Assembly: GCA_028288125.1 (NCBI GenBank)
Contig: JAQBOH010000003.1
Span: forward strand, 1-47,807
Source: Mucilaginibacter sp.
Lineage (GTDB): Bacteria > Bacteroidota > Bacteroidia > Sphingobacteriales > Sphingobacteriaceae
Reading direction: 5' to 3'
Length of the DNA: 47,807 bases
In this document: piece by piece, positions 6,556 to 43,131 of the stretch
Layout: each line of letters begins with the position of its first letter
How positions within the stretch are numbered: the stretch's first letter is position 1
Translations under genes and position numbers: made by a program
The notes under the pieces: generated by a model
What the model saw: only the letters and a program-made list of their open reading frames with translations
Told to the model about the DNA's origin: nothing
The model's database searches: none

Positions 6556-6575
6556 CAGATTAAAATTATGAAAGA

Positions 6576-14014: not shown

Positions 14015-14053
14015 TGTATCATAACCGGACACCTGATGTAACAGAAGCGAACG
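14015..14053 (+). promoter_or_regulatory. paired 17-bp activator-site candidate A (UAS)
   Basis: TGTATCATAACCGGACA (14015-14031) and TGTAACAGAAGCGAACG (14037-14053), 22 bp apart; same layout at 30177 and 43024. Confidence 0.6.
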
Positions 14054-14105
14054 CCTCAAAAGGATATTTGAAGTTTAAGATGCTGAAAAACAGGCGTTTA
14101 ATTTG

Positions 14106-14120
14106 TGGCATATCTTTTTA
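14106..14120 (+). promoter_or_regulatory. sigma54 -24-like element A (TGGCATATCTTTTTA)
   Basis: TGGCAT 91 bp downstream of the UAS start; canonical -12 GC not evident. Confidence 0.4.
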
Positions 14121-14165
14121 TAACCAACAGCATAATCATCAAAAACTAAACTATAAAAAACTACT

Positions 14166-15419
14166 GTGGACAGAGTAATTGAAAAAAAGACCTGGAATAC
14201 CAAAAGACTATTAACTATCGCCGGCGTAACGGGCATTATTTTGCTGATTGCCGGGAGCATTTATTTTACATCGGGCAAAAGCAAGCTGGACGTGAATACC
14301 GAACGCCTGACTGTAAGTGAAATTAAGAAAGGACCTTTCCAGGAGTTTATCCCGGTTAACGGTGTGGTGATGCCGCTTACTACCATTTATCTCGACGCAT
14401 CCGATGGCGGTCGTGTTGAACAAAAATATGTTGAGGACGGCGCCCGCCTGAAAAAAGGCGATCCGATTATCAGGTTATCGAATACCGACCTCGAGCTGAG
14501 TCTTGCTAACGAAGAAACCGCCGTATATGCCAATCAAACGCAAATGCAGATATCGCATAACCAGGCGCAGCAGAATACCATTACCAAGCTGAACAACATG
14601 GCCGATGTTGATATCGCTTTTAAAGAAGCCGAACGTCTTTACAAGCTGGATAAAGAACTTTACAGTAAAAAAGCCATTGGTTTGCAGGATTACCAGTCGG
14701 CTCAAAACCAATACCAGTACCAGTTGAGCCGCAAAAAATTGGCCAGCCAGATATTATCGCAGGATACGGCCGTAGTTAAACAGCAGGAAAGGCAAACCAA
14801 AGAGCAGTTCGCCCAAATGAAAAACACCCTCGACCTATTGCGCAAAAAAGTAAGCGATCTTACCGTAAGAGCGCCTATTGACGGGCAGCTGACCTCGTTT
14901 GACGCTGAAATCGGACAAAATAAAACAAAAGGGGAACATTTGGGACAAATCGACGTCTTATCAGGCTTTAAGGTAAGAGTGAGCGTGGAGGAGCATTATA
15001 TCTCGCGCGTTTTTACCGGCTTAAAAGGCGATTTTCAATTTGCTGATAAAACCTATCGCCTGGTCATAAAAAAAGTGTTTACGCAGGTGGTAAACGGCCA
15101 GTTCCAGGTGGATATGGCTTTTGTAGGGCCTACGCCGTCTGGCATAAGGAAAGGCCAAACCCTACAGGTGCGCCTAGCCTTGAGCGACGAAACAACTGCA
15201 TTACTGTTGCCTAAGGGCGGATTTTACCAGCAAACTGGCGGTAACTGGATATTTAAGGTAAGTGACGATGGAAAAAAAGCCTACAAGGTGGATATACAGA
15301 TCAACCGCCAGAGCCCTGATTATTATGAGCTGATGTCGGGATTAAAAGAAGGAGATAAAGTGATCACCTCCAGTTATGAAACCTATGGTGACATACAGGA
15401 GCTGGTGCTGAAGAAGTGA
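14166..15419 (+). CDS. HlyD/MacA-like periplasmic adaptor subunit (GTG start as called)
   Basis: Single N-terminal TM, barrel-sandwich (GRVEQKYVEDGARLKKGDPIIRLSN ... VRAPIDGQLTSFDAEIGQNKTKGEHLGQI), coiled-coil region. Confidence 0.88.
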   Translation: MDRVIEKKTWNTKRLLTIAGVTGIILLIAGSIYFTSGKSKLDVNTERLTVSEIKKGPFQEFIPVNGVVMPLTTIYLDASDGGRVEQKYVEDGARLKKGDPIIRLSNTDLELSLANEETAVYANQTQMQISHNQAQQNTITKLNNMADVDIAFKEAERLYKLDKELYSKKAIGLQDYQSAQNQYQYQLSRKKLASQILSQDTAVVKQQERQTKEQFAQMKNTLDLLRKKVSDLTVRAPIDGQLTSFDAEIGQNKTKGEHLGQIDVLSGFKVRVSVEEHYISRVFTGLKGDFQFADKTYRLVIKKVFTQVVNGQFQVDMAFVGPTPSGIRKGQTLQVRLALSDETTALLLPKGGFYQQTGGNWIFKVSDDGKKAYKVDIQINRQSPDYYELMSGLKEGDKVITSSYETYGDIQELVLKK

Positions 15420-15570
15420 CAGAAGTGAGAGGCAAGAAAACAAGAGTCAAGAACCAAGACCAAAAATAAGCCATGAACTATGAACCATCAACTAACAATC
15501 TATACAATTAATTAACTTAAACTATAAATCAATCTTCACCGGGATGATCCGGCAAGATTAGGAGGCGAAA

Positions 15571-16248
15571 ATGATAAAAATTACAGATCTCGAAAAGTTT
15601 TACCGTACCGAAGAGGTAGAAACCATTGCTTTAAATAAGCTGTCTATCGAAGTTAAAAAGGGCGAGTTTGTGGCCATTATGGGCCCCTCGGGCTGCGGCA
15701 AATCAACATTGCTCAACATCCTGGGCATGCTGGATGATCCGGACAGCGGAAGCTACGTTTTCAACGGCGTTGAAGTAGCGCATTTTACGGAGCGCAAACG
15801 CGCTGATCTGCGCAAGCATAATATCGGCTTCGTATTCCAGAGCTTTAACCTTATCGACGAGCTTACCGTATTTGAAAACGTGGAGCTGCCGTTGATCTAT
15901 ACCGGCGTACCATCTGCCGAGCGGGTAAAAAGAGTTGAAGAGGTGCTTGATAAAATGCAGATCATGCACCGTCGCAATCACTATCCGCAGCAATTGTCGG
16001 GTGGTCAGCAACAGCGTGTAGCAATATCAAGGGCCGTGGTGAATAAACCAAAGCTGATACTGGCGGATGAGCCTACGGGTAACCTCGACAGCAGCAACGG
16101 TAACGAAGTTATGGAATTACTGACCGACCTGAACGAACAGGGAACAACCATTATTATGGTGACACACTCCGAGCATGATGCCCGTTACAGTCACCGCATC
16201 ATCCGTTTACTGGATGGGCAAACAGTGGTTGAGAATATTATGATTTAG
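15571..16248 (+). CDS. ABC transporter ATP-binding protein, LolD/MacB-NBD type
   Basis: Walker A GPSGCGKST, signature LSGGQQQRVAISRA, Walker B LILADEPTGNLD, switch His MVTHSEHD. Confidence 0.96.
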   Translation: MIKITDLEKFYRTEEVETIALNKLSIEVKKGEFVAIMGPSGCGKSTLLNILGMLDDPDSGSYVFNGVEVAHFTERKRADLRKHNIGFVFQSFNLIDELTVFENVELPLIYTGVPSAERVKRVEEVLDKMQIMHRRNHYPQQLSGGQQQRVAISRAVVNKPKLILADEPTGNLDSSNGNEVMELLTDLNEQGTTIIMVTHSEHDARYSHRIIRLLDGQTVVENIMI

Positions 16249-16256
16249 TTTTAAGT

Positions 16257-16282
16257 CTTGAGTCCGGAGTCTCAAGTTTTTT
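16257..16282 (+). terminator. intrinsic terminator/attenuator after ATPase gene
   Basis: cttgag (16257-16262) / ctcaag (16271-16276) followed by tttttt. Confidence 0.5.
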
Positions 16283-16342
16283 AACATAAGCTGATTAGGC
16301 CGCTTTAAAGAAAGTTTATTAGTTAAGTAGTTAATGCCTCCG

Positions 16343-16370
16343 CTAACCTCCTCCCGAACGGAGGGGTTAG
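16343..16370. repeat. GC-rich intergenic hairpin
   Basis: ctaacctcctcccgaacggaggggttag, near-perfect inverted repeat. Confidence 0.7.
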
Positions 16371-16401
16371 CTTGAGTGTTGCCTGATTTATTAAATCCGA
16401 A

Positions 16402-16419
16402 TCCCGATAGCTATCGGGA
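16402..16419. repeat. 18-bp perfect palindrome TCCCGATAGCTATCGGGA
   Basis: Directly read; intergenic. Confidence 0.85.
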
Positions 16420-16464
16420 CGGAAAAGTCCGGAAGATACATTCTGCAACTAATGATCAAACAAA

Positions 16465-18888
16465 ATGATAAAGGACTTTATTAAAACCGCTTTTCGTACG
16501 CTCCTGAAAAACAAGGGATTTACTGCCATTAACGTATTAGGACTGGCATTGGGACTGGCCACTTGTATGCTCATCGTTTTTTATGTGATAGATGAGTTGA
16601 GCTATGACAAGTTCAATACCAAAACTGATAGAATATACCGCGTTAACAGTGATATAAAATTTGGAGGTAGTGAAGGTTCGTTTGCTGTTACACCTGCTCC
16701 GTTAGCTGTCGCCTTTTTAAGTGAGCTTCCCGAGGTGAAACAAGTTGCACGGTTTAGATCGTGGGGCGGTTTCCAGGTAAAAAAAGGAAATCAAAACCTT
16801 AGAGAGCATAAGGTGGTATATGCTGATGCTTCAATTTTTGACATATTTACTTTTCCGATGATTGCCGGTGATCCGAAAACTGCATTAAAGGATCCGCGCA
16901 CGGTGGTTATTAATGAGAGTACCGCAAAAAAATATTTTAATACTACCAACGTTATTGGAAAAACATTAACTCTGAATGATAGCCTGCTTTATAAGGTAAC
17001 CGGCGTTATAAAAGACATTCCTAAACAGGCACATTTCAATTACGATTTTTTCCTTTCCATGCAATCTCTGCCGGAAAGCAAGGAAAACAGCTGGGTGAGC
17101 AATAATTTTAACACGTATATCCTGCTAAAAAAGGGTGCATCTCAAAAATCGATGGAAGCTAAACTTCCAAAAATTGTGCGCGCACATGTCGGCCCCCAAT
17201 TGCAGGCCGTTATTCATAAAAGTCTCGATGACGTTGAAAAGGGCGGCGACTATATCCGGCTTAATCTTACCCCGTTAAATGATATTCATCTTCATTCAAA
17301 CCGAGTGGCTGAACTCAATAATAATGGCAATATCCAATATGTGTATATCTTTTCGGCCATTGCGCTGTTTATATTACTGATTGCTTGTGTAAACTTCATG
17401 AACCTGTCAACAGCGCGCTCATCAAACCGGGCCCGCGAGGTTGGCGTACGAAAGGTACTGGGTTCGCCACGTAAATTTTTAATAGCCCAGTTTTTGTCAG
17501 AATCCATCCTGGTTACCTTTGTCGCTACGGTCATCGCCGTTTTAGCCGCTTGGGTTCTACTGCCATTATTTAATCAAATGTCCGGAAAGGAGTTGATGTT
17601 TACTCCGGGTACATTTGTATGGCTGGCCCCTGTGCTTATTGCTCTTGTAGTTGTGATCGGTTGCCTCGCCGGCTCCTATCCGGCTTTGTTTCTATCGGCT
17701 TTTCAGCCGATAGACGTGCTTAAAGGAAAATTATCTTCTGGATTTAAAGCCGGATGGTTACGCAACTTCCTGGTTGTCTTTCAGTTTTCTATTTCAATTT
17801 TTCTTATCGTCGGCACGTTGGTTATTTATAACCAGCTTAAATATATCCAGCACAAAGATCTGGGTTATAAACGCAACCAGGTGCTTATTGTCCACAATGT
17901 TTACGCTATAGGCAAACAAACAAAAATATTTAAACAGGAGATTGAAAAATTTCCAAACGTGGTAAGCGCCACTTTGACTGGTTTTCTTCCTACCGAAGGT
18001 AATGGGAATAGCACAACCTTTTTCCAAGACCACACCATGGATTCAAAAAAAGCGCTCTCGACTCAGCTATGGTCAGTCGATGAAAAATACATACCAACGC
18101 TGGGGATGAAAATGATTTCGGGACGGAATTTTTCTAAAGATATGTCCACCGATTCTGCGGCGGTGATCATAAACGAAACCGCAGCTAAGAAACTCGCCAT
18201 GGCTGATGTCTTAAATAAGGTGCTGTATTACCCGGCCGACCGCTATGGAAAAGTTATTAAACCAGTGCATATTATTGGTGTGGTTAAGGATTTTAATTTC
18301 AATTCATTGCGTGAAAATATTACACCTGTGATATTAACATATGGCGATGACTGGGGCGCTGTTGGCATTAAAATAAAAACAGCAAACGTTGCGGCGCTGA
18401 TAGACCAGATAAAAGATAAATGGAAAGCATTAGCACCCGGCCAGCAATTCGATTACTCTTTTATGGATGCGGACTTTGACGCAGCCTACCGTACAGAGCA
18501 GCGTATGGGTACAATTTTCATCACGTTTACCACATTGGCCATTATCATCGCCTGTTTAGGCCTGTTTGGTTTAGCGGCATACGCGGCCGAGCAGCGCGTT
18601 AAAGAAATAGGCATCCGTAAAGTATTGGGGGCCAATGTTTCAAAAATTGTAGCCATGCTTTCATATGATTTTATAAAGCTGGTGCTGATCTCAATTGTGA
18701 TCGCTTCGCCAATTGCCTGGTGGGCTATGCAAAAATGGCTACAGGATTTTGCTTACCGGCAAAATATACAATGGTGGGTATTTGCATTAGCGGGCATTGG
18801 AGCGGTTGTAATCGCTTTTGTGACCATAAGTTTTCAATCGATAAAAGCGGCGCTGTCTAACCCGGTGAATAGTTTGAGAAGCGAATAG
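16465..18888 (+). CDS. ABC transporter permease 1 (MacB_PCD/FtsX duplicated type, no NBD)
   Basis: 807 aa; NLSTARSSNRAREVGVRKVLGS and AAYAAEQRVKEIGIRKVLGA in two halves; ends NPVNSLRSE. Confidence 0.93.
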   Translation: MIKDFIKTAFRTLLKNKGFTAINVLGLALGLATCMLIVFYVIDELSYDKFNTKTDRIYRVNSDIKFGGSEGSFAVTPAPLAVAFLSELPEVKQVARFRSWGGFQVKKGNQNLREHKVVYADASIFDIFTFPMIAGDPKTALKDPRTVVINESTAKKYFNTTNVIGKTLTLNDSLLYKVTGVIKDIPKQAHFNYDFFLSMQSLPESKENSWVSNNFNTYILLKKGASQKSMEAKLPKIVRAHVGPQLQAVIHKSLDDVEKGGDYIRLNLTPLNDIHLHSNRVAELNNNGNIQYVYIFSAIALFILLIACVNFMNLSTARSSNRAREVGVRKVLGSPRKFLIAQFLSESILVTFVATVIAVLAAWVLLPLFNQMSGKELMFTPGTFVWLAPVLIALVVVIGCLAGSYPALFLSAFQPIDVLKGKLSSGFKAGWLRNFLVVFQFSISIFLIVGTLVIYNQLKYIQHKDLGYKRNQVLIVHNVYAIGKQTKIFKQEIEKFPNVVSATLTGFLPTEGNGNSTTFFQDHTMDSKKALSTQLWSVDEKYIPTLGMKMISGRNFSKDMSTDSAAVIINETAAKKLAMADVLNKVLYYPADRYGKVIKPVHIIGVVKDFNFNSLRENITPVILTYGDDWGAVGIKIKTANVAALIDQIKDKWKALAPGQQFDYSFMDADFDAAYRTEQRMGTIFITFTTLAIIIACLGLFGLAAYAAEQRVKEIGIRKVLGANVSKIVAMLSYDFIKLVLISIVIASPIAWWAMQKWLQDFAYRQNIQWWVFALAGIGAVVIAFVTISFQSIKAALSNPVNSLRSE

Positions 18889-19006
18889 GAGCTATTACTA
18901 AGCAATAGGTGTAATAAATTACGCCAATGCAGATCGGAATGCAACTTATTTCTCAAATCGGTAGTCTAGTATAAAAAATCCAATGATCGTACTAAAATCT
19001 TGACTC

Positions 19007-21379
19007 ATGTTAAAAAACTACTTGAAAATAACCTGGAGGAATTTACGCAGGCATAAAGCATTTTCGTTAATAAATATCTCTGGCCTGGCGATTGGTATGG
19101 CCAGTTCGGCGCTTATATTATTATGGATACAGAACGAGGTAAGCTACGACCAGTTCCACGCAAAAAAGGATCGCCTGTATTCGGTTTACAACCGTTCTGT
19201 TTTTGATGGCAAGCTTTGGTGCTGGAATACTACGCCTAAGGTAATGGCTAAAACCCTCAAACAGGATTACCCGCAAATTGAAGAGGTGGCCCGCACGAGC
19301 AACAATAATTTCTTGTTTACTATTAACGATAAGCACCTGAATGTCCCCGGCTACTTTACCGATCCCGGATTTCTGACCATGTTTAGCTTTCCGCTGGTTA
19401 GCGGAAATAAAAATACCGCGTTAAATAATATCAAAGACATTGTTATCACCCAAAAGTTAGCTAAAAAACTGTTTGGAAATGACAATGCGATGGGTAAAAC
19501 TATAAAAATTGATAGCAACGCTTATTTTACGGTATCAGCTGTTATGCAGGATCTGCCGAACAATACCCAGTTTAAATTTGAATACTTGATGCCTTGGTCG
19601 TACCTGAAGAAAATTGGCGGGGATGATACTGGGTGGGGTAATAATTCTATACAAACCTGGGCGCTGCTAAAACCGGGCGTTACCGAGGCCGAAGCCAATA
19701 AAAGTATTGTAAACATAACCAGGTCACATTCCGAAATAAAAGATATCGACGTTTTTGTACACCCGTCCGGTAAATGGAGATTGTATTCTAAGTTTGACCA
19801 GAAAGGAAAAATTTCGGGCGGGCGTATTGAAACCATCAGGATATTTTCGATGATAGCCGCATTTATCCTTATCATAGCCTGTATCAACTTTATGAATTTA
19901 AGCACGGCCCGGAGTGAAAAACGTGCAAGGGAAGTGGGTATCCGTAAAGTGGTAGGCGCCTTAAGAGGCTCCTTGATATCCCAGTTTTTAGGCGAATCTA
20001 TTTTTATCGCGCTGATAGCCGGCTTGATCGCTATTGTGATTGTACAGCTTAGTTTATCCGGATTTAACCGGCTAACAGATAAGCAACTGTATATACCGTA
20101 TAGCAGTCCCTGGTTTTGGTTTACGGCACTTTCATTTATTTTGTTTACCGGGCTAATTTCAGGTAGTTACCCTGCGCTTTACCTGTCTTCATTCCGGCCG
20201 GTCAGCGTATTGAAAGGTACTTTCAAAGCCGTCAATGCATTAATTACGCCACGCAAATTACTGGTAGTAGTGCAATTTACATTTGCCGTGGTTTTGATTG
20301 TTTGCACCATAATCATTCGCCAGCAATTGCAATATGCACAGGACCGCGAAACCGGTTATAAAAAAGATAACCTGGTATATGTGATGATGACCGGCAATGT
20401 CGAAAAGCAATACGCACTGATAAAAAATGATTTGCTGGCCAGTGGTGCGGCCGCCGCGGTAAGTAAAACGAGCGCCCCGATTACCCAGGGCTGGAGTGAT
20501 AGCTGGGATTTTATTTGGGACGGTAAGGACATGAGTAAGAAAATAGACTTTAATATGTTCAATACCGATGGCGACCTCGTGAAAACCATGGGACTTAAGC
20601 TTATTGCAGGTCGTGATATCGACGTTAAAACTTACCCGACTGATTCAGTGGCGATGATTTTGAATGAAACCGCGGTGAAGACTATGGGATTTAAAAACCC
20701 GGTCGGCCAAATCATTAAGCGACCAAATGATGCTACGCATTTTACCAACTGGCATGTAATAGGAGTAGTTAAAGATTTTATCCTTCAATCACCATACGAA
20801 CCTGTGAAGGCAATGATCATACAGGGTCCTAAATCGTGGTTCAACGTGATTCATTTTAAATTGAATGGCGCCCACACAACCGCCGAGAATTTAAAACTGG
20901 CAGAAAAAGTATTTAAAAAATATAACCCTGATTATCCTTTTGAATACAACTTCATTGATCAGGATTACGCTAAAAAATTTGGCGATGAGCAACGCATAGG
21001 CACACTGGCCAGCCTGTTTGCCGGTCTTACTATTATTATATCTTGCCTGGGCTTATTTGGTTTGGCGGCTTATATGGCCCAAAACCGTATAAAGGAAATA
21101 GGTGTGCGCAAGGTTTTAGGCGCATCGGTGGCAGGCGTCACTACCTTGTTATCTAAAGACTTTTTAAAGTTGGTAATGATCGCGTTCGCTATCGCTATGC
21201 CCATTGCCTGGTGGGCCATGTATAAATGGTTGCAGGGATATTCCTACCGTATTTCAATAAGTATATGGGTATTTGTCCTTGCAGCTTTGATCACAATTAT
21301 CATATCATTAATAACCGTAAGTTTCCAGGCAATTAAAGCTGCGTTGGCTAACCCGGTGAAAAGTTTGAGAAGCGAGTAG
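19007..21379 (+). CDS. ABC transporter permease 2 (MacB_PCD/FtsX type)
   Basis: 790 aa; NLSTARSEKRAREVGIRKVVGA, AAYMAQNRIKEIGVRKVLGA; ends NPVKSLRSE. Confidence 0.93.
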   Translation: MLKNYLKITWRNLRRHKAFSLINISGLAIGMASSALILLWIQNEVSYDQFHAKKDRLYSVYNRSVFDGKLWCWNTTPKVMAKTLKQDYPQIEEVARTSNNNFLFTINDKHLNVPGYFTDPGFLTMFSFPLVSGNKNTALNNIKDIVITQKLAKKLFGNDNAMGKTIKIDSNAYFTVSAVMQDLPNNTQFKFEYLMPWSYLKKIGGDDTGWGNNSIQTWALLKPGVTEAEANKSIVNITRSHSEIKDIDVFVHPSGKWRLYSKFDQKGKISGGRIETIRIFSMIAAFILIIACINFMNLSTARSEKRAREVGIRKVVGALRGSLISQFLGESIFIALIAGLIAIVIVQLSLSGFNRLTDKQLYIPYSSPWFWFTALSFILFTGLISGSYPALYLSSFRPVSVLKGTFKAVNALITPRKLLVVVQFTFAVVLIVCTIIIRQQLQYAQDRETGYKKDNLVYVMMTGNVEKQYALIKNDLLASGAAAAVSKTSAPITQGWSDSWDFIWDGKDMSKKIDFNMFNTDGDLVKTMGLKLIAGRDIDVKTYPTDSVAMILNETAVKTMGFKNPVGQIIKRPNDATHFTNWHVIGVVKDFILQSPYEPVKAMIIQGPKSWFNVIHFKLNGAHTTAENLKLAEKVFKKYNPDYPFEYNFIDQDYAKKFGDEQRIGTLASLFAGLTIIISCLGLFGLAAYMAQNRIKEIGVRKVLGASVAGVTTLLSKDFLKLVMIAFAIAMPIAWWAMYKWLQGYSYRISISIWVFVLAALITIIISLITVSFQAIKAALANPVKSLRSE

Positions 21380-21411
21380 GGGAAGTTTGCAGTTAGGGTA
21401 AAAATTGACTA

Positions 21412-23850
21412 GTGAAAAATAACATGATACAAAACTACATCAAAACAGCCTATCGATCGCTGTTAAAAAACAAGGGTTTTACGATCTTAAATGTTTTAGG
21501 ACTTTCGTTAGGACTTGCCAGTTGCCTGCTCATTATATTTTATGTGGCTGATGAGATAAGCTACGACCGCTACAATACCAAAGCCGATAGGATATATCGC
21601 GTAAATGAAGACCTGAAGCTTGGCGAAAATAATGTTCTTTATGCAGTATGTATGCCTCCTTTGGCGCAAGCGCTAAAAAATGATTTTCCCTATGTAGAAA
21701 ATACGGTAAGAATAAAAAATGCTGGTTCAATGCATGTTAAAAGGGGAATAACAAATATCCTTGAAACTAAAATTGCGTTAGCCGACCCCTCGCTGTTTAA
21801 TGTATTTACCCTGCCTATGATCAATGGGAGCCCGGCAACAGCCCTGGCAGAGCCAAACAGCGTGGTAATAACCGAAAGCATTTCAAAGAAATACTTTAAA
21901 CGCACCAATGTTGTAGGTGAAACATTAAAGTTTAATGATACCTGGTATAAAGTCGCCGGCGTAATCAAGGATATACCAGTGCAATCGCATTTTAACTTCG
22001 ATTTTTTTATCTCAATGTCTTCTTATCCTGATAGCAGGTCGACCGAATGGCTAAGAAGTGATTATAACACTTATGTTTTATTTAAAGATGCGGCAGATCA
22101 TAAAAAGCTTGAAGCAGCTTTACCTGCTTTTTTAAACAGACACAGCGGGCAGCAAATGCAGTCACAATTAAAAATGAGTATGGCCGTTTTTGAAAAAGGC
22201 GGAAGTTTTTTCAGATTAAATTTAACGCCGCTAACTGATATCCACCTCAAATCAAATCGAACAGGTGAACTGGGACCGAATGGCACAGTTCAATATGTAT
22301 ACATTTTTTCGGCTATTGCCCTGTTTATCCTGTTAATCGCCTGCGTTAATTTTATGAATCTTTCAACCGCCCGCTCCTCAAACAGGGCGCGGGAAGTTGG
22401 CGTGCGCAAAGTGCTTGGTTCTGCCCGCAAACATCTGATAACCCAGTTCCTGACAGAATCAATAATGGTGACTTTTGTTGCTACTATTATAGCTTTGTTT
22501 TCCACAGTAGTATTGCTACCGGCATTTAATCAACTTTCAGGCAAGGATTTATCTATTTCATCACAAACGCTTACATGGCTTGTTCCGGCATTATTATTTA
22601 TTGTTTTATTTGTTGGGGCAATGGCGGGTTCATACCCTGCCTTTTATCTTTCCTCATTTCAACCAATTGACGTACTAAAAGGCAAATTATCTGCAGGTTT
22701 TAAGGGCGGTGGATTGAGGAACTTTTTGGTTGTTCTGCAATTTTCCATATCCATTTTCCTTATCATAGGCACACTGGTTATTTACAACCAACTAAATTAT
22801 ATCCAAACCAAAAATTTGGGGTATAACCGTAATCAGGTTTTAATAGTTCAAAACACTTTTGAATTAAATAACCAGGCCAGGGTTTTCAAGCAAGAGATTA
22901 AACAATTACCAGGAGTAATAAACGCAACACTAACAGGTTTTCTACCAACATCTAACTGGAAGAATACCTCTATATTTTTTAAGGATGCCGCTTTTGACCA
23001 AAAGAAGGCATTATTCCCTCAAACATGGGAAGTCGACGAAGATTATATCAAAACACTGGACATGAAAATGACTTCGGGCCGCAATTTTTCAAGCCAAATG
23101 CTAACAGATTCATCCGGTATTATCATTAATGAATCTGCTTCGAACTTTTTGGGACTTAAATATCCGTTAAATAAACCGTTGTACAGATCAAACGGTGGTA
23201 AACAGGACATATCCAACTCAAAGGAGTATCATATTATAGGTGTTGTTAAGGATTTTAATTTTAGTTCCCTGCGGGATGTAATTAGCCCGGTGGTATTGGT
23301 ATTGGCTCAAAATAAAGGCGCGTTAAGTGTGCGGGTAAATACAACCAACCTGCCTTTTCTGCTATCTCAAATTAAAGAAAGATGGAAGGCGCTTTCACCC
23401 AACGTACAAATGAATTTTTCTTTTATGGATCAGGACTTTGACGCTTCATATCGTACCGAACAGCGAGTGGGGAAAATATTCATTGTATTTACCTCATTGG
23501 CAATAATAATTGCCTGCCTGGGTTTGTTTGGCCTTGCCGCATATGCTGCCGAACAACGTACAAAGGAAATCGGGATACGGAAAATATTGGGTGCAAGCAT
23601 ATCTGCTATCGCCGCTATGCTTTCTTTTGATTTTATAAAGCTGGTATTTATCGCCATTCTTATTTCATTGCCTGCAGGATGGTTTTTGATGAATAAATGG
23701 CTGCAGGATTTTGCATACCGGCAAAATATACAATGGTGGGTATTCGCGGTAGCAGGTTTTGGAGCAATTATGATCGCTTTCGTCACTATAAGTTTTCAAT
23801 CCATAAAAGCGGCTTTGAGTAACCCTGTGAACAGTTTGAGGAGCGAGTGA
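21412..23850 (+). CDS. ABC transporter permease 3 (MacB_PCD/FtsX type); possible downstream start at 21424
   Basis: 812 aa; close to permease 1; ends NPVNSLRSE. Confidence 0.93.
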   Translation: MKNNMIQNYIKTAYRSLLKNKGFTILNVLGLSLGLASCLLIIFYVADEISYDRYNTKADRIYRVNEDLKLGENNVLYAVCMPPLAQALKNDFPYVENTVRIKNAGSMHVKRGITNILETKIALADPSLFNVFTLPMINGSPATALAEPNSVVITESISKKYFKRTNVVGETLKFNDTWYKVAGVIKDIPVQSHFNFDFFISMSSYPDSRSTEWLRSDYNTYVLFKDAADHKKLEAALPAFLNRHSGQQMQSQLKMSMAVFEKGGSFFRLNLTPLTDIHLKSNRTGELGPNGTVQYVYIFSAIALFILLIACVNFMNLSTARSSNRAREVGVRKVLGSARKHLITQFLTESIMVTFVATIIALFSTVVLLPAFNQLSGKDLSISSQTLTWLVPALLFIVLFVGAMAGSYPAFYLSSFQPIDVLKGKLSAGFKGGGLRNFLVVLQFSISIFLIIGTLVIYNQLNYIQTKNLGYNRNQVLIVQNTFELNNQARVFKQEIKQLPGVINATLTGFLPTSNWKNTSIFFKDAAFDQKKALFPQTWEVDEDYIKTLDMKMTSGRNFSSQMLTDSSGIIINESASNFLGLKYPLNKPLYRSNGGKQDISNSKEYHIIGVVKDFNFSSLRDVISPVVLVLAQNKGALSVRVNTTNLPFLLSQIKERWKALSPNVQMNFSFMDQDFDASYRTEQRVGKIFIVFTSLAIIIACLGLFGLAAYAAEQRTKEIGIRKILGASISAIAAMLSFDFIKLVFIAILISLPAGWFLMNKWLQDFAYRQNIQWWVFAVAGFGAIMIAFVTISFQSIKAALSNPVNSLRSE

Positions 23851-23911
23851 GGCAGTTGACAGTAGCAGTTTGCAGTTATAAGAAAAATCATATATAGTGA
23901 AGAAGTTTAAA

Positions 23912-23944
23912 TCAATAATTCACTAAATCACTAATTCAATAATT
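23912..23944 (+). repeat. AT-rich pre-start intergenic repeat (tcaataattcactaaatcactaattcaataatt)
   Basis: Similar strings at 26368, 32782, 37854 and 43201, each just upstream of a permease start. Confidence 0.75.
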
Positions 23945-23951
23945 AAAACTC

Positions 23952-26318: not shown

Positions 26319-26366
26319 GCCCCACCTTAAAAAGTCTCCCCAACCGGGGGAGATTTAGAGGGGGCT
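26318..26366. repeat. intergenic hairpin repeat (agccccacc..gtctccccaaccgggggagat..agagggggct)
   Basis: Nested inverted repeat with inner tctcccc/gggggaga and outer agcccc/ggggct arms. Confidence 0.7.
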
Positions 26367-26391
26367 GAACTAATTCAATAATTGATTTATC

Positions 26392-28782: not shown

Positions 28783-28788
28783 GTTATA

Positions 28789-28859: not shown

Positions 28860-28951
28860 TGCTACTCGCATACTGCACTCATTAAAATAATTACCATACG
28901 TGCAACATGTTTCGTACCAACCGGGTCTATTAGTAAAACAATGAGAAAGAT

Positions 28952-30004: not shown

Positions 30005-30032
30005 GGTTTAGAAATAGTTTTATTAATGAGCT

Positions 30033-30070
30033 AAGCGGCCCTGGTGTGATTAACATCAGGGCCGCTTTTA
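30033..30070 (+). terminator. intrinsic terminator after the DUF4097-like gene
   Basis: aagcggccctg (30033-30043) / cagggccgctt (30057-30067) followed by tta. Confidence 0.75.
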
Positions 30071-30176
30071 TATAATGGAAATATTCATCGTTCAAATCTA
30101 AAACGGCGAATCCTTCTTGAACACCATTGAAAATAAACAAAAGTGAAAAATTGTAAATCCGAATTAAAAAGCGGAC

Positions 30177-30215
30177 TGTATCATAAACGAACACAGGGTG
30201 TTACGCTTGCGAACA
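30177..30215 (+). promoter_or_regulatory. paired 17-bp activator-site candidate B (UAS)
   Basis: TGTATCATAAACGAACA (30177-30193) and TGTTACGCTTGCGAACA (30199-30215), 22-bp spacing. Confidence 0.6.
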
Positions 30216-30267
30216 GTTGTAATTATATATAAAATGTAATTGATTGAATAACAGCTGTTTATTTAAT

Positions 30268-30282
30268 TGGTATGTATTTTAA
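30268..30282 (+). promoter_or_regulatory. sigma54 -24-like element B (TGGTATGTATTTTAA)
   Basis: 91 bp downstream of UAS start; TGGTATGTATTTTA identical to site C. Confidence 0.4.
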
Positions 30283-30307
30283 ACCTATCGTAAAAAAATA
30301 GTCCGGC

Positions 30308-32731: not shown

Positions 32732-32781
32732 GAAAAGTAGGCAGTGTGCAGTAGCAGTCGGCTGTTGATATGAAAATATAT

Positions 32782-32812
32782 AATTCAATAATTCACTAAA
32801 TCAATAATTGAT
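32782..32812 (+). repeat. AT-rich pre-start intergenic repeat (aattcaataattcactaaatcaataattgat)
   Basis: Same family as 23912. Confidence 0.7.
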
Positions 32813-32818
32813 AAGGTC

Positions 32819-35248: not shown

Positions 35249-35309
35249 TTAGAGATTAGTTTTATCCAGAAAAAATGACTAACAAGACAATGACCAATGA
35301 CCAAATAAA

Positions 35310-37778
35310 ATGATAAAAAACTACTTCAAAATCGCATTACGGGGCTTTTGGAAACATAAGCTGTTTACGCTGATCAATATTATCGGCTTATCAATCGGTA
35401 TCAGCGCCGCGCTGGTAATTTACCTCATCGTTCACTTTGATTTTACTTTTGATAAATTTCATAAGGACAGCGACCGGATATACCGGGTAGTGAGCATTTT
35501 TTCCTTCCAGGGTGAAAAAGGATACAACAGCGGAATATGCGGCCCATTACCACAAGCTGTTAAAAACCAGGTAACGGGGATTGAAGTTGCGGCGCCATTC
35601 TATACCTTGTACGGTCCGAATGTATTTATTCCGGGCAAGGGGAATGTTCCGGTTAGATTTAAAAGCCAGGATAATATAGTTCTTGCCAGTCCCGAGTATT
35701 TTAAAATATTCAATTATAAATGGCTAGCCGGTTCTCCAAAAAATGCGCTGAGTGCGCCTAACCAGGTAGTGTTAACATCTGAACAGGCAAAAAAATATTT
35801 CTCATCATTGCACTATAGTCAAATGATCGGCAAAATAGTCGCTTACGATACGATAAAGACAACCGTAACAGGGATTGTTCAGTCATTCACAGACAATACT
35901 GATTTCACGTTTCACGATTTTATATCTTATAGCACAGGCGTTGTTAATAACGATTTAAAAGGTCAGCTACAACTCACCGAATGGGAAAGCACCAATTCAG
36001 CATCGCAACTTTTTATAAAGTTATCGCCTTCAGCAAACGCAGCGCACGTTGAAAAGCAACTAAATGATATTCTTAAAAGGAATAGCCCGCCGAAGCCTGA
36101 AAGCAAAGGCAATACCCATAGATTTAGTTTACAGCCGTTAAACGACTTACATTTTAATGAGCATTATGGAAATTTCGACAATGATCGCGTGGCCAGTAAA
36201 ACCACATTATATGGGTTACTTATCATAGCTTTATTTCTGTTGCTGTTAGGCTGTATTAATTTTATTAATTTAACTACCGCGCAGGCTACACAAAGGGCAA
36301 AGGAAATTGGTATCCGCAAGACAATGGGAAGTAGCCGTATGCAGCTGGTGGTGCAATTTTTAAGTGAAACATTTTTGATAACGTTGATAGCCGTTATTAT
36401 CTCGGCGGCATTAGCGCCTGTAATTTTAAAGCTTTTTGCTGATTTTGTGCCGGCTGGTATTAAGGCAAATATCTTTTCACAACTCAGCCTGATAATATTT
36501 CTATTGTTATTAACTATCATAGTCAGCCTCTTATCCGGGTTTTATCCTGCGGTGATGTTGTCAGGATATAAACCGGCTATGGTACTTAAAAACCAGGCTG
36601 CATCAAACAGCAGTAAAACGCGAAATGCGTGGCTGCGTAAATCATTAACGGTTACTCAATTTATCATCGCCCAATTCTTCATCATGGCAACTGTATTGGT
36701 GAGTAAGCAAATTTATTATGCATTGCATAAAGATATGGGCTTTAAAAAAGACGCTATAGTTATTATAAATTCTCCGTGGAAAAACCGGACGGCCAGCAAA
36801 AACCAAGTGTTTTTAAATAAGTTGCGTTCTATGCCGCGGGTTGATATGGTTAGCGTTGGCAATGCGCCCCCATCGTCCGGGAATACGAACTCAACCATCG
36901 TTACTTATAAGGATGGCAAGAAGGAAGTTAAAACCGAGGTGTTCCTGAAATTTGGGGATGAAAATTATATCCCGCTATATAAAATCAAGTTAACCGCAGG
37001 GCGTAGCCTGCAGCCTGGCGATACGTCAAAATCGGTAGTGATAAATACAACGTATGCAAAAATACTCGGTTTCAAATCGCCGAACGATGCTGTCGGCAAG
37101 ATGCTCAATAATTTTAACGGAACAAAAAATTTAAAAATTGTAGGGGTGGTCGCTGATTTTCATCAGAAATCGTTGCATGACCCTATTAAACCACTGGCCA
37201 TATTCACCAGCACCAATAACTACCAAACCGGTACGTTCCACATCTCGCTAAAACCGCAAACCGCCGGTGGTGATGAATGGAAAACCGCATTGGCAGCAAT
37301 TGGAAGATCATGGAAGGAAATATATCCTGACGACGACTTTGAATATCATTTTTTCGACGAAACAATAGCTAAGTTTTATGAAACCGAGCAGCATACTTCA
37401 ACACTATTAACCTGGGCCACGGGCTTATCAATATTTATTAGCTGCCTGGGTTTATTAGGGTTAGCCATTTATACAACCAACCAGCGCACTAAGGAAATTG
37501 GTGTGCGCAAGGTGCTGGGCGCAACAGTGGCGCAAATTGTTAAGTTGCTTTCAACCGAGCTGGTGTTGCTTATCATCCTGGCGTTTTTGATCGTTACGCC
37601 ATTAGCTTGGTGGGCCATGAACAAATGGATGCAGGGCTTTGCCGACCGCACACCCATAAGCTGGTGGATATTCGCTGCCAGCGGCGCTGGAATGTTGTTG
37701 GCCGCGGTGTTTACATCGGGCTTTCAAACGGTTAAGGCGGCTATCGCTAACCCAGTAAAAAGTTTAAGGAGCGAGTAG
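35310..37778 (+). CDS. ABC transporter permease 8 (MacB_PCD/FtsX type)
   Basis: 822 aa; NLTTAQATQRAKEIGIRKTMGS, TTNQRTKEIGVRKVLGA; ends NPVKSLRSE. Confidence 0.93.
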   Translation: MIKNYFKIALRGFWKHKLFTLINIIGLSIGISAALVIYLIVHFDFTFDKFHKDSDRIYRVVSIFSFQGEKGYNSGICGPLPQAVKNQVTGIEVAAPFYTLYGPNVFIPGKGNVPVRFKSQDNIVLASPEYFKIFNYKWLAGSPKNALSAPNQVVLTSEQAKKYFSSLHYSQMIGKIVAYDTIKTTVTGIVQSFTDNTDFTFHDFISYSTGVVNNDLKGQLQLTEWESTNSASQLFIKLSPSANAAHVEKQLNDILKRNSPPKPESKGNTHRFSLQPLNDLHFNEHYGNFDNDRVASKTTLYGLLIIALFLLLLGCINFINLTTAQATQRAKEIGIRKTMGSSRMQLVVQFLSETFLITLIAVIISAALAPVILKLFADFVPAGIKANIFSQLSLIIFLLLLTIIVSLLSGFYPAVMLSGYKPAMVLKNQAASNSSKTRNAWLRKSLTVTQFIIAQFFIMATVLVSKQIYYALHKDMGFKKDAIVIINSPWKNRTASKNQVFLNKLRSMPRVDMVSVGNAPPSSGNTNSTIVTYKDGKKEVKTEVFLKFGDENYIPLYKIKLTAGRSLQPGDTSKSVVINTTYAKILGFKSPNDAVGKMLNNFNGTKNLKIVGVVADFHQKSLHDPIKPLAIFTSTNNYQTGTFHISLKPQTAGGDEWKTALAAIGRSWKEIYPDDDFEYHFFDETIAKFYETEQHTSTLLTWATGLSIFISCLGLLGLAIYTTNQRTKEIGVRKVLGATVAQIVKLLSTELVLLIILAFLIVTPLAWWAMNKWMQGFADRTPISWWIFAASGAGMLLAAVFTSGFQTVKAAIANPVKSLRSE

Positions 37779-37853
37779 AACAGTTTGCAGTAGCAGTTGG
37801 CAATTTTTCACAGCAGACAGAAGCTACCTAATAATTAATAACGAAGAACCAAG

Positions 37854-37881
37854 TCAATAATTCACTAAATCACTAATTGAT
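37854..37881 (+). repeat. AT-rich pre-start intergenic repeat (tcaataattcactaaatcactaattgat)
   Basis: Same family as 23912. Confidence 0.7.
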
Positions 37882-37889
37882 TTACCAGC

Positions 37890-40403
37890 ATGATAAAAAT
37901 CAACCTAAAACTCGCAATCCGGAATATTTTCCGGAACAAATTGTACTCTGCAATAAACATTATCGGTTTAAGTGTAGCGAGCGCATTTTGCATACTAGTT
38001 TATTTGTATGTGAAAAACGAGCAGTCGTTCGATTCCTTTCACCAAGATCTGAGCCGGTTATACCGGGTTGAGCAGAGCGATATTTTTGGTTCTACTTCGT
38101 CGCGCATAAAACTTAAAAAAAACTTTTTTTCTTTTTTATCGCATGATGCGGGGCAGTTAAATATGATACAAACGCCCACTATTTTGGCTGTTGACCTTAA
38201 AAGAAATTTTCCTGAAATAGAAAATGCAATCAGGTTTGAAGGTTTGGGTGCCGAGACGATCCGGGTAGGGAATAAAAGTTTTAAAGAGCAGGATAATAAC
38301 CTTACTTACGCCGACGCTGATTTCTTTAAGGTATTCAATTATCCATTAATTGAAGGTAACGCCAATACGGTGCTGCAGGGCCGGAACCAGGCTGTTATCA
38401 GTGAAAAGCTGGCGTTGAAATATTTTGGAAAAATTAACGCGGTCGGCAAGGTTTTCACAATGCCTAATGAACTCAATCGCCCGCCGGTAACCGTTAGCGG
38501 CGTGTTCAAGGATTTCCCGGCTAACTCCAGCTTTCAATTTGATATGATTATCCCCATCGAATCAAACCCTGATTATAAGGACAATTTAGCCCGCGGTACA
38601 AATTCCTTCAGCGATCCGTTGGTCATAAAACTGAAAAAAAGGACAAATGTAAATCGGTTCCAGCAAAAACTCAGCACTTTTGCTGCGGGCTATTTTCAGG
38701 ATTTGATCAACTCGATGAAAAAGCATGACCCGAAGAAAAAATATGCCGGCATGAATTTGTATTTACGCCCATTCAACCAGGCGCATTATAACCAGTCTCC
38801 CGGCTGGAACCATTTTACCGATCTGAATAGTATTTACCAGTTGGTTTGCATAACGGCTATTATATTGTTTATTGCCTGTTTAAATTATATCCTTCTCACT
38901 TTAACAAATACCGTTTCGCGCTCCCAGGATGTAGGTATCCGGAAAACGATCGGCGCCGAAAGATATAGGATCATTTTTCAATATTATACGGAAACCCAGC
39001 TGCTGGCCTGCACGTCGGTACTGATAGGATACCTTATTGCGGTAATATGTTTGCCTCTTTTAAATGGCATCACCAATACCGATATTAACTTATCCGGTTT
39101 TTCAAACGGTGCAGTTTTCCTGTTCCTCCTGTTGTTTTCTGTGGTTTTAGGTTTGCTGGCCGGTATTTATCCTGCGCTGGCCATGTCGGGATTAAAGCCG
39201 CTTAATATCATGCGTAGTTTTTCGGCATACAAGCTAAGTCCGTTCTTGTCGAAATTTTTGGTGGTTCTACAATTTTCTATATGTACCATCCTGGTTATAT
39301 CCACCCTAGTTATTAACAAACAACTCCATTATATTAACCAGACCGACATGGGCTTTAATAAGGATCAGGTGCTTATTATACGATCGCCGTATGGATGGGC
39401 CGATAAACAAAATCCTAAAGTTTTAAAGGAAAGGCTCATTAACTATGCAGCCACCGAACCGGGCGTCCAGGATATTACAAGCGTAAGCATTGTTTATGGC
39501 GGGTACAACAACAACGCTTTTTTTATCAACGGAGAAAAGGTAATGCTCCAGGCGCTTGACATCGACTATAACTATTTCTCCTTCTTAAAGATACCTATCA
39601 TTAAAGGCAGGAGTTTTTCAAAAGATGTGGCTACTGATACGGCCAAATTAAATCTTCCCGGACTGAGAACGGCACAAACCTTTTCGCTGGCATCAAGGGC
39701 TATAGTTGTTAATGAAACATTATATAATATGCTCGGAAGACCAAAGCTGGACGAAGTTAACAGGCAAATGGGCGGCCCCATTATTGGTGTTTGCAGGGAC
39801 TATCATTCGGAAGATCTCACGAAGAAAATACAGCCCGCTTATCATACCGTCGAAAAATATGGGCCGTTTAGTTTTTGGCTGAAGATAAGAGCGGGCCAAA
39901 GCCTGCCTGCCGAAATAGAAAAGATAAGGGCCAGGTGGAATATCTTAACAAACTCCGCTCCGCTGGACTATACGTTTCTCGACCAGGAGGTTGCTAAAAA
40001 TTACGTGGAATACCAGCGGTGGATGAAAACTATCACAGTGTCCTGTATTATTGCCATACTGATAGCCTGCCTTGGCTTATTTGGATTATCGGGGCTAGCT
40101 ACTATCAACCGCACAAAGGAGATTGGTATCCGGAAGGTTTTAGGCGCATCGATATCCAATTTGTTTATAATGCTCAACCGCGGTACACTTATCCTGGCCG
40201 CCGGTGCATTTTTTATAGCTGTCCCGTTAGGCTACTACCTGGTGCACCAGTGGCTCGACAACTTTGCCTATCGTATTAAACCCGATTGGATATTATTTGT
40301 AACGGCGGGAGCAATAGCCATGCTTACGGCGATTATCGCTGTTAGTTATCATACCATTAAAGCGGCGGTGGCAAACCCGGTGAATAGCCTCAGAAGTGAG
40401 TAG
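37890..40403 (+). CDS. ABC transporter permease 9 (divergent MacB_PCD/FtsX type)
   Basis: 837 aa; TNTVSRSQDVGIRKTIGA, LATINRTKEIGIRKVLGA; ends NPVNSLRSE. Confidence 0.92.
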   Translation: MIKINLKLAIRNIFRNKLYSAINIIGLSVASAFCILVYLYVKNEQSFDSFHQDLSRLYRVEQSDIFGSTSSRIKLKKNFFSFLSHDAGQLNMIQTPTILAVDLKRNFPEIENAIRFEGLGAETIRVGNKSFKEQDNNLTYADADFFKVFNYPLIEGNANTVLQGRNQAVISEKLALKYFGKINAVGKVFTMPNELNRPPVTVSGVFKDFPANSSFQFDMIIPIESNPDYKDNLARGTNSFSDPLVIKLKKRTNVNRFQQKLSTFAAGYFQDLINSMKKHDPKKKYAGMNLYLRPFNQAHYNQSPGWNHFTDLNSIYQLVCITAIILFIACLNYILLTLTNTVSRSQDVGIRKTIGAERYRIIFQYYTETQLLACTSVLIGYLIAVICLPLLNGITNTDINLSGFSNGAVFLFLLLFSVVLGLLAGIYPALAMSGLKPLNIMRSFSAYKLSPFLSKFLVVLQFSICTILVISTLVINKQLHYINQTDMGFNKDQVLIIRSPYGWADKQNPKVLKERLINYAATEPGVQDITSVSIVYGGYNNNAFFINGEKVMLQALDIDYNYFSFLKIPIIKGRSFSKDVATDTAKLNLPGLRTAQTFSLASRAIVVNETLYNMLGRPKLDEVNRQMGGPIIGVCRDYHSEDLTKKIQPAYHTVEKYGPFSFWLKIRAGQSLPAEIEKIRARWNILTNSAPLDYTFLDQEVAKNYVEYQRWMKTITVSCIIAILIACLGLFGLSGLATINRTKEIGIRKVLGASISNLFIMLNRGTLILAAGAFFIAVPLGYYLVHQWLDNFAYRIKPDWILFVTAGAIAMLTAIIAVSYHTIKAAVANPVNSLRSE

Positions 40404-40408
40404 AAACC

Positions 40409-40513
40409 TCACCCAACCCTCTCCAAAGGAGAGGGCTTTAAAAAGGGATGGGTTATAATTTATATAATTTAAGGAAGCCCCTCTCCTTTGGAGAGGGATT
40501 TAGGGTGAGGCTA
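40409..40513. repeat. long intergenic inverted repeat (cctcacccaaccctctccaaaggagaggg ... cctctcctttggagagggatttagggtgagg)
   Basis: Two arms are near reverse complements; each arm also contains its own ctctcc-aaagg-agag dyad. Confidence 0.85.
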
Positions 40514-40541
40514 ATGACACAGTGACAAATAATCAAATAAC

Positions 40542-42935
40542 ATGATAAAAAACTATATAAAAGTTGCCTGGCGCAGTTTAACGCGGCAAAAGCTTTACAG
40601 CCTGATCAACATATCGGGGCTTGCCATTGGCCTGGCTGTTTGTATGCTGATTATGCTTTATGTAGCACATGAGCTGAGCTACGATAAATTTCACGCAAAT
40701 GCCAAACGAATATTTGCCTTAAATGAACATGTTAAAATGGGTACCCAGGAAATTAACATGGCTTATACGAGCTATGCCAGCGGCCCCATAATAAAGCAAA
40801 GCACACCCGGCGTGGCCGGTTATATGCGTACACGGAAACCATTTAAAGACATAGTAATTGAAAGCCCTATATTGGCAAATGCCAAATTTTCGGAAAGCAA
40901 AATGTTTTTTGCCGATGCTGATTTCTTTAGTTTTTTCTCGTTCAAATTGCTGTCTGGCGGTGCGTCAAATGTGCTCAGCCAACCATTTTCGCTGGTCATT
41001 ACGCGGGATATGGCTAAAAAGTATTTCGGTAACGAAAATCCCATAGGTAAAACGCTGAAAATTAAAACTGAGGACACATACCAGTATACAGTAACAGGTA
41101 TTGCCGAAAATGTGCCTTCAAATTCCAGTATCGACTTTAATTTCATGGCATCAAACGCAAGCCTGAAGTTGATGCGCGAAGCCAGGCCCTTTCTTGAATC
41201 GCAGCTTGTTCAAGGCGGTGCATTCACCACTTACCTGCTTTTAAAGCATCCCCAGGATTCCTCGTCGGTGCAACGCGCGGTTCAATCATTCATAAAAGGT
41301 AAACCGGGCCCAAAAGATGACAAGTTTCAGCTTATTCCGTTAACGGATATGCATCTTAATACCAGCAGCGACTTCTCAAATACCAAATACCTTAAAATAT
41401 TCCCGCTTGTGGCGGGTTTGATATTGCTGCTGGCATTGGTTAATTATATGAGCCTGTCAACCGCCCGCTCCACTTTAAGGGCTAAAGAAGTAGGTGTGCG
41501 GAAAGTCAACGGGGCGAGCCGGATTTCCTTAGCCACGCAGTTTTACATCGAGTCAACTCTTTTTACTTGTTTATCCTTTATACTCGGGTACATGCTGTGC
41601 TATCTTTTTAAACCCTGGTTTTTAAATATCCTGGAGTTAAAAATCGATACGTCATTTTTGTATAGCGCCCCGGTACTTTTGATCTTATCTGGTTTACTAA
41701 TAATAACCATTGTAATTGCAGGCAGCTATCCTTCTGTAGTTCTGTCGGCCTTTAAGCCGGCAATTACCCTTAAGGGAAAGATGAGCAAACAAACGGGAGG
41801 TGTTACTGTCCGTAAAGTATTTACCACTTTCCAGTTTGCCATTTCGGTAGGATTGATCATTTGCGGGATAATAATCGACCGTCAACTATACTATTTCAGG
41901 CACACCGATACAGGTGTTAACCGCGAAAACATAGTGATGATACCCATCAGCAATAGCTTCGGAAAAAACTATCAAAGTTTTAAACATGATGTTTTAGCCA
42001 TAGCGGGCGTAAGCCAGGCAGCCACATCTCATTACCCGATGTACAAAGGATATGATATGTTTTTCCTGCACGATAAAGTAAAAAAGGAGGAGATGGCTAT
42101 GCCGATACTGACCGTGGATAAAGCATTTATTCCCACCCTGAATATTACTTGGAAAATACCGCCCGTATCCGAGGATATTATTGCTATGCCGGACAAAGTA
42201 GTGATCAACGAAATGGCCATATCAAAATTGGGTTTACCGGCCAACCCAATTGGGAAAATTGTTGACTTCGGTGGCAAACAACAATACAAGGTAGCAGGGG
42301 TTACCAAAAACTTTAATTTCAGTTCACTGCAAAGTACCGTAGGCCCGCTATGTTTATTTATAGCGAAGGACACCGTTACCGACTGGGGCGTATCCGGTGG
42401 ATGCCTTTTTGCCAAAATAAAACCGCATGCTAATTTACCGACTATAATTTCGGCCATCCAGGTCAGCTATAAGAAATACGACCAGGAAACACCGTTTAGC
42501 TATACATTTATGGATGATGCATTTAATGCGCAATACAAAGCGGAAAATAAGCTGGCGTCTATATTCACCCTGTTCACAGGGATAACTATTTTACTGGCTA
42601 CGCTAGGCTTATTTGGCCTTGCCGCCTTTACGATAGAGCAGCGCACAAAAGAAATTGGTATACGCAAAATACTGGGAGCGAGCCTGTCGGCCTTGGCAAC
42701 TTTGTTGTCCGGAGATTTTTTAAAGCTGGTACTGCTTGCCATCTTTGTTGCATCGCCATTTGCCTGGTGGGCGATGCACAACTGGCTGCAGGGTTTTGCT
42801 TACCGGATAACCATACAGTGGTGGATGTTTGTTTCGGCCGGTGTTTTGGCCGTTTTGGTGGCGGTAATAACGATTAGCTATCACGCTATAAAGGCAGCTA
42901 TAGCTAATCCGGTTGATAGTTTGAGAAACGAGTAA
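40542..42935 (+). CDS. ABC transporter permease 10 (MacB_PCD/FtsX type)
   Basis: 797 aa; SLSTARSTLRAKEVGVRKVNGA, FTIEQRTKEIGIRKILGA; ends NPVDSLRNE; closest to permease 4. Confidence 0.93.
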   Translation: MIKNYIKVAWRSLTRQKLYSLINISGLAIGLAVCMLIMLYVAHELSYDKFHANAKRIFALNEHVKMGTQEINMAYTSYASGPIIKQSTPGVAGYMRTRKPFKDIVIESPILANAKFSESKMFFADADFFSFFSFKLLSGGASNVLSQPFSLVITRDMAKKYFGNENPIGKTLKIKTEDTYQYTVTGIAENVPSNSSIDFNFMASNASLKLMREARPFLESQLVQGGAFTTYLLLKHPQDSSSVQRAVQSFIKGKPGPKDDKFQLIPLTDMHLNTSSDFSNTKYLKIFPLVAGLILLLALVNYMSLSTARSTLRAKEVGVRKVNGASRISLATQFYIESTLFTCLSFILGYMLCYLFKPWFLNILELKIDTSFLYSAPVLLILSGLLIITIVIAGSYPSVVLSAFKPAITLKGKMSKQTGGVTVRKVFTTFQFAISVGLIICGIIIDRQLYYFRHTDTGVNRENIVMIPISNSFGKNYQSFKHDVLAIAGVSQAATSHYPMYKGYDMFFLHDKVKKEEMAMPILTVDKAFIPTLNITWKIPPVSEDIIAMPDKVVINEMAISKLGLPANPIGKIVDFGGKQQYKVAGVTKNFNFSSLQSTVGPLCLFIAKDTVTDWGVSGGCLFAKIKPHANLPTIISAIQVSYKKYDQETPFSYTFMDDAFNAQYKAENKLASIFTLFTGITILLATLGLFGLAAFTIEQRTKEIGIRKILGASLSALATLLSGDFLKLVLLAIFVASPFAWWAMHNWLQGFAYRITIQWWMFVSAGVLAVLVAVITISYHAIKAAIANPVDSLRNE

Positions 42936-42948
42936 AGAAGAGTGGACG

Positions 42949-43012
42949 GTTTGCAGTAGCAGTTGGCAGTTTACAAAGGTAAAACACAAACTGCCAGCTG
43001 AAAACTGCAAAC
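42949..43012. terminator. imperfect hairpin built from GCAGT-type intergenic repeat
   Basis: gtttgcagtagcagttggcagttt (42949-42972) vs aaactgccagctgaaaactgcaaac (42988-43012). Confidence 0.6.
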
Positions 43013-43023
43013 TTTCTTCAAAC

Positions 43024-43062
43024 TGTATCATAACCGGACATATACTGTCACGCTTACGAACA
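43024..43062 (+). promoter_or_regulatory. paired 17-bp activator-site candidate C (UAS)
   Basis: TGTATCATAACCGGACA (43024-43040; identical to site A) and TGTCACGCTTACGAACA (43046-43062), 22-bp spacing. Confidence 0.6.
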
Positions 43063-43116
43063 TGTTCGTACAATAAATTTATATATAACTTTTTGATTAT
43101 TAATACTTTAATTGTT

Positions 43117-43131
43117 TGGTATGTATTTTAG
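43117..43131 (+). promoter_or_regulatory. sigma54 -24-like element C (TGGTATGTATTTTAG)
   Basis: 93 bp downstream of UAS start. Confidence 0.4.

Follow-up and report, generated by a model that had tools for sequence, protein, structure and literature searches.

Paired boxes upstream of a multi-permease exporter array in Mucilaginibacter point to a predicted regulon of a variant NtrC/sigma54 type

The window analysed here, a stretch of 47,807 nucleotides of Mucilaginibacter sp. DNA, carries three copies of a paired 17-bp box within an array of ABC transporter genes, each pair being followed by a TGGYAT element. We propose, with a probability of roughly 0.87, that the boxes are upstream activating sites of the NtrC-type response regulator encoded at 12381-13757, and that TGGYAT-N4-TT(T/G) is a sigma54 promoter activated by this same regulator. 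The parts of this reading, which comes from sequence comparison, differ in strength: at the level of sequence, the regulon is nearly certain, the neighbouring regulator very likely binds the boxes, and the promoters are likely to be sigma54-dependent, with two atypical features, the activator loop and the -12 element. One two-component switch would thus probably turn on the whole pump set together.

The boxes and promoters of the window are as follows:

14015..14053, + strand: paired enhancer boxes of site A, with A1 at 14015-14031 (TGTATCATAACCGGACA) and A2 at 14037-14053 (TGTAACAGAAGCGAACG); direct reading and genome pattern search, PWM 53.7 bits
14106..14119, + strand: predicted sigma54-type promoter A (TGGCATATCTTTTT), TGGCAT at 14106; 99-site alignment
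30177..30215, + strand: paired enhancer boxes of site B, with B1 at 30177-30193 (TGTATCATAAACGAACA) and B2 at 30199-30215 (TGTTACGCTTGCGAACA); direct reading and genome pattern search, PWM 50.9 bits
30268..30281, + strand: predicted sigma54-type promoter B (TGGTATGTATTTTA), TGGTAT at 30268; direct reading and site alignment
43024..43062, + strand: paired enhancer boxes of site C, with C1 at 43024-43040 (same sequence as A1) and C2 at 43046-43062 (TGTCACGCTTACGAACA); direct reading and genome pattern search, PWM 46.9 bits
43117..43130, + strand: predicted sigma54-type promoter C (TGGTATGTATTTTA), TGGTAT at 43117; direct reading and site alignment

Box 2 starts 22 bp after box 1 in all three sites, and TGGYAT lies 91, 91 and 93 bp from box 1 at sites A, B and C, respectively. 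A preliminary description of this DNA had given the same coordinates and distances and the identity of A1 and C1, and all of these proved exact on re-reading. The two dyads are in helical phase and oriented toward the promoter, as in NtrC-type enhancers. Scanned with a 39-bp PWM, the window scores high at sites A, B and C only (47-54 bits), the next-best position falling below -9, and 1.5 Mb of Markov-random DNA, searched on both strands, yielded no score reaching 8 bits. A distinct RND efflux operon adjoining the array (OMF, HlyD and AcrB genes, 3899-9755) has no paired boxes (Pfam, PWM scan). Directly 3' of box 2 there is an inverted extra half-site, at 43063-43070 in the window (ACGAACATGTTCGTA) and as TATTCGTA or TATCGTAC in relatives; in the site alignment, it accompanies many permease-type sites and is absent from adaptor-type sites. 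It may be a third site for binding, modulating strength.

The draft genome is a MAG of 3.42 Mb, about 80% complete, in which the window is contig C28. Allowing up to three mismatches, we found exactly four matches to the pair in the whole draft and none to the reversed control pattern. The three sites first described are thus all real but an undercount: the fourth, on a separate contig (C159:3380), sits before an ABC ATPase gene followed by a gene for a TolC-like outer-membrane factor. The search was extended to 60 relatives, comprising 36 Mucilaginibacter congeners and 24 genomes from other families of the class. Paired sites occur in 30 of the 36 congeners, with one to six per genome, and in none of the 24 genomes from other families; reversed controls gave no match in any of the 60. 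Among 101 distinct sites, 99 have TGG(C/T)A at 89-93 bp from box 1 (91 bp in 43 cases, 93 in 30, 92 in 18, 90 in seven and 89 in one), the two exceptions being TGGTAG and TGGAAT, near 93 bp. Since TGG(C/T)A was outside the search pattern, its presence is an independent check; some box positions were fixed by the pattern, so that conservation there is partly imposed, and the sites of the genus are related by descent and hence not independent. We also considered that the motif might be common at non-promoter sites: it is rare and promoter-bound.

The presumed binder of the boxes and its kinase are encoded beside the array:

11027..12391, - strand: sensor histidine kinase, its gene overlapping that of the regulator; PF02518 HATPase_c, H-box THEIMNSVAPI
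12381..13757, - strand: NtrC-type response regulator, presumed binder of the boxes; PF00072, PF00158, PF25601 and PF02954, loop GAYTDA

The regulator has the NtrC-family architecture, with a receiver, an AAA+ sigma54 activator domain (PF00158) and a Fis-type HTH. It falls below the cut-offs of the NCBIfam models AtoC, ZraR and PEP_resp_reg, and the kinase is closest to AtoS, far below cut-off. The regulator's loop is GAYTDA rather than GAFTGA, which passages of PMC12316311 describe as invariant in sigma54 EBPs. The loops of three further activators encoded in the genome are GSFTGA, GSFTSA and GSYTGA (other activators are on C164, C111, C68 and C155). Many congeners also encode a second NtrC-type paralog of about 42% identity (e.g. 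G020:C22:175101-176450).

A contig scan with the regulator gave 80 loci, from Mucilaginibacter, Arcticibacter, Chitinophagaceae, Pedobacter, Solitalea and Hymenobacteraceae, and nearly all of these homologs have the loop GA(F/Y)TDA. The divergent gene encodes an adaptor at 57 loci, a permease at eight and an ATPase at two. At least 59 of the 80 loci have a TGTATC-type pair, 21-22 bp apart and with TGG mostly 90-93 bp off, whereas Markov-random DNA searched for this pair as a control gave no match. In the homologs from Chitinophagaceae, Arcticibacter, Pedobacter and Solitalea, the pair lies within the divergent intergenic region. Some ten loci of Pontibacter/Rufibacter type (Hymenobacteraceae) have the boxes GTGCGAAATCGCAC and GCGCGATTTTGCAC, spaced by about 22 bp, with TGGCA(T/C) following at about 91 bp; here, the box sequence is altered and the geometry is retained.

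How well does the promoter element agree with sigma54? Canonical sigma54 promoters read TGGCAC-N5-TTGC and follow the GG-N10-GC rule. Alignment of 99 sites shows an invariant TGG and an invariant A two bases further on; TT occupies offsets 10-11 in 98, and the base after TT is mostly T or G. The -24 element, TGG(C/T)A(C/T), matches that of a sigma54 promoter, but TT is one bp closer than canonical in those 98 sites and GC stands at the canonical -12 offset in only one of the 99. The consensus given for Bacteroidia in passages of PMC12316311 is TGGCAC-N5-7-TTGCT, outside of which N4 spacing falls. In the intergenic DNA of the 80 regulator loci, TGGCAY-N4-TTGC occurs ten times, mostly at these promoters, and the N5 form does not occur.

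It is conceivable, then, that the activator works from the boxes while another sigma factor, for example the Bacteroidota housekeeping sigma, reads the promoter, TGGYAT being a different element. The missing -12 GC, the shifted TT and the unusual loop would fit such a scheme, as would the counts in Mucilaginibacter genomes, where canonical TGGCAYR-N4-TTGCW shows no excess over its reversed control. We consider it unlikely, because the -24 element matches and keeps a fixed distance to the enhancer, because several Chitinophagaceae have a near-consensus TGGCACG-N3-TTGC, and some Hymenobacteraceae a TGCA at canonical distance, in the same promoter position, and because RpoN is retained: as expected of a sigma54 regulon, it is found in 36 of 37 genus genomes, including all four that lack the regulator. 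We therefore keep the sigma54 reading and, given the absence of both GAFTGA and the -12 GC, file the regulon as a variant of the NtrC/sigma54 type. The sigma54/NtrC assignment first made from the paired boxes and the TGG element is supported in this form, its -12 half not being canonical.

Two ideas about spacing were dropped. Genome-wide counts (about 216 matches to TGGCAYR-N3-TTGCW against 71 to its reverse; 114 against 93 for N4) had suggested that short spacing is general in Bacteroidia; among the fetched matches of a class-wide sample, however, 16 of 40 with canonical spacing were intergenic and only 1 of 40 with the shorter one, so that the N3 excess is coding sequence. Outside this regulon, the spacing that stands before genes in the class is generally the canonical one. 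A tie between the GAFTDA loop and short spacing is likewise unsupported, since Hymenobacteraceae pair GAFTDA with a -12 element at the canonical offset.

Could the boxes be bound by another regulator, the adjacent NtrC-type gene being a bystander? The genome contains at least four other convincing sigma54-activator genes, and gene adjacency alone is not binding. The distribution of the sites makes this quite improbable. Homologs of the regulator assign the draft genome to Mucilaginibacter, with 97% identity to MAG RYN_320. Of 37 genus genomes, 33 contain an ortholog (79-100% identity). The four genomes without it, three near complete and with RpoN (G007, G024 and G030) and one 58% complete (G009), have neither paired sites nor an adaptor ortholog; this joint absence of regulator, sites and adaptor suggests that the exporter system comes and goes as a whole. 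Three genomes have the regulator and no site at three mismatches: G002 and G034 present a diverged or 21-bp-spaced pair under relaxed criteria, and in G012, an incomplete assembly, the regulator is only a fragment. Moreover, the site lies in the regulator's own divergent intergenic region at about 60-70 of the 80 loci, in several families. The earlier proposal that the regulator at 12381-13757 drives the modules of the array is thus strengthened by a rare, promoter-bound motif that co-occurs with the regulator, by the same geometry at homologs in other families and by the presence of RpoN.

The genes behind the sites are of few kinds. The first gene, starting 4-225 bp downstream of TGG, encodes a MacB/FtsX permease at 51 of the 101 sites, an HlyD adaptor at 29, an ABC ATPase at 20 and, in one relative, a toastrack homolog with its own paired site; an unrelated first gene follows none of the 101. 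Diverged sites (three mismatches) at L093, L097, L105, L112 and L127 (G010, G004, G018, G033 and G032, respectively) are followed by single permeases or a toastrack gene. Where coordinates allow a judgement, these sites lie outside the main cluster, and they probably belong to the regulon as satellites. Among the genome's own four sites, identity is 59-100% in boxes and promoter but 22-52% in the 100 bp before them, in the stretch from box to TGG and in that downstream; with such flanks, recent copying is not the cause of the shared boxes. Although the permeases are paralogous and stand in a repetitive array, we reject the notion that the boxes are functionless relics of segments copied during tandem duplication of the array, already largely refuted by conserved boxes and TGG between unrelated flanks, by sites before non-homologous genes (adaptor, ATPase, permease, toastrack) and by a geometry kept between families.

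In the window, the array comprises:

14166..15419, + strand: HlyD/MacA-like periplasmic adaptor, first gene of unit A; PF13437, RND_mfp above cut-off, DarC-like below cut-off
15571..16248, + strand: ABC ATPase of MacB/LolD/DarD type; PF00005, DarD 302 bits, below the cut-off of 375
16465..28782, + strand: five MacB_PCD/FtsX permeases of unit A, ORFs 16465-18888, 19007-21379, 21412-23850, 23952-26318 (assigned by position and size only) and 26392-28782; PF12704 and PF02687 in the four scanned
28952..30004, + strand: toastrack protein (DUF4097/LiaG-like); PF13349, LiaG below cut-off
30308..42935, + strand: five permeases of unit B, ORFs 30308-32731, 32819-35248, 35310-37778, 37890-40403 and 40542-42935; ORF list, Pfam on the first and last
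43244..47807, + strand: unit C, permease 43244-45607 and a next permease from 45712, cut by the contig end; Pfam, ORF reading

The permeases, of about 790-840 aa, lack PF00005 and the ATPases are separate genes, unlike a MacB-type fusion; the permease at 30308 scores 327 bits against TIGR03434 ADOP, below the cut-off of 622. Adaptor, ATPase, MacB_PCD/FtsX permease and TolC-like OMF, the component set of the MacAB-TolC type, are all found under paired sites. The regulon first described, an adaptor/ATPase unit and two permease units, stands but is larger, with an additional ATPase and TolC unit, as many as six sites in one genome and several genera. The last permease is cut at 47807 and C159 (L135, 1-9664) starts inside an open frame, possibly a permease, so that the array runs past the contig end; this frame is followed by genes for a permease, an ATPase, TolC, a beta-barrel protein and a GH9 cellulase. 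The contig of the window and C159 may adjoin.

The standard mechanism of the NtrC family involves phosphotransfer, an oligomer on paired enhancers and looping to the sigma54 polymerase. Here, histidine kinase 11027-12391 would phosphorylate the regulator, which would assemble on both dyads, on one face of the DNA, about 87 and 109 bp upstream of the expected start. DNA looping would bring it to the sigma54-RNA polymerase held at TGGYAT, for ATP-driven remodelling. Four units would be co-induced (adaptor, ATPase, five permeases and toastrack; five permeases; at least two permeases; the C159 ATPase and TolC), and their products would jointly make up a complete adaptor-ATPase-permease-TolC exporter, rich in permeases. 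The MacAB-like and toastrack/LiaG-like content leads us to guess at cell-envelope or antimicrobial-peptide stress as the inducing signal.

This system resembles the two-component sigma54 regulons of the NtrC family (AtoC/ZraR type), with their receiver, AAA+ and Fis-type HTH domains, kinase partner gene, paired dyads of about 17 bp, two helical turns apart and about 90-110 bp upstream of the expected start, and -24 element. It differs from them in its GA(F/Y)TDA loop, in its -12 element, with TT one bp closer and GC missing, and in its target, a multi-permease exporter. Its components are those of MacA-MacB-TolC, the DarBCD darobactin exporters and ADOP (adaptor, ATPase, MacB_PCD and FtsX permease, TolC-like channel); unlike in these systems, about a dozen permeases share few ATPase and adaptor genes, and the array proteins score below the curated cut-offs of the DarB/C/D and ADOP models. 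In the literature on this regulon or on sigma54 spacing in Bacteroidota, we found only PMC12316311 to be directly relevant. Its passages report in silico sigma54 promoters before COG0577/FtsX-like ABC permeases in Bacteroidia, with COG enrichment at the class level, which our sites resemble; the same passages, however, name no activator, enhancer sequence or array structure. As far as the literature searched shows, the specific activator, the enhancer, its geometry, the conservation in several families and the modular array are new.

We tentatively suggest, at slightly less than even odds, that the GA(F/Y)TDA activator family drives a sigma54 promoter subtype in Sphingobacteriales and Chitinophagales, with -24 and -12 elements one bp closer and no -12 GC. 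If so, an ancient exporter regulon would provide a natural exception to the GG-N10-GC rule. The system also offers a natural test case for the strictness of sigma54 promoter spacing and of the GAFTGA loop. The multi-permease FtsX/MacB arrays of Bacteroidota are poorly understood; a predicted regulator and binding site can now be named for them. The adaptor, the ATPases, TolC and about a dozen permeases look like one regulon, and the 39-bp signature provides a searchable means of finding all parts of the system.
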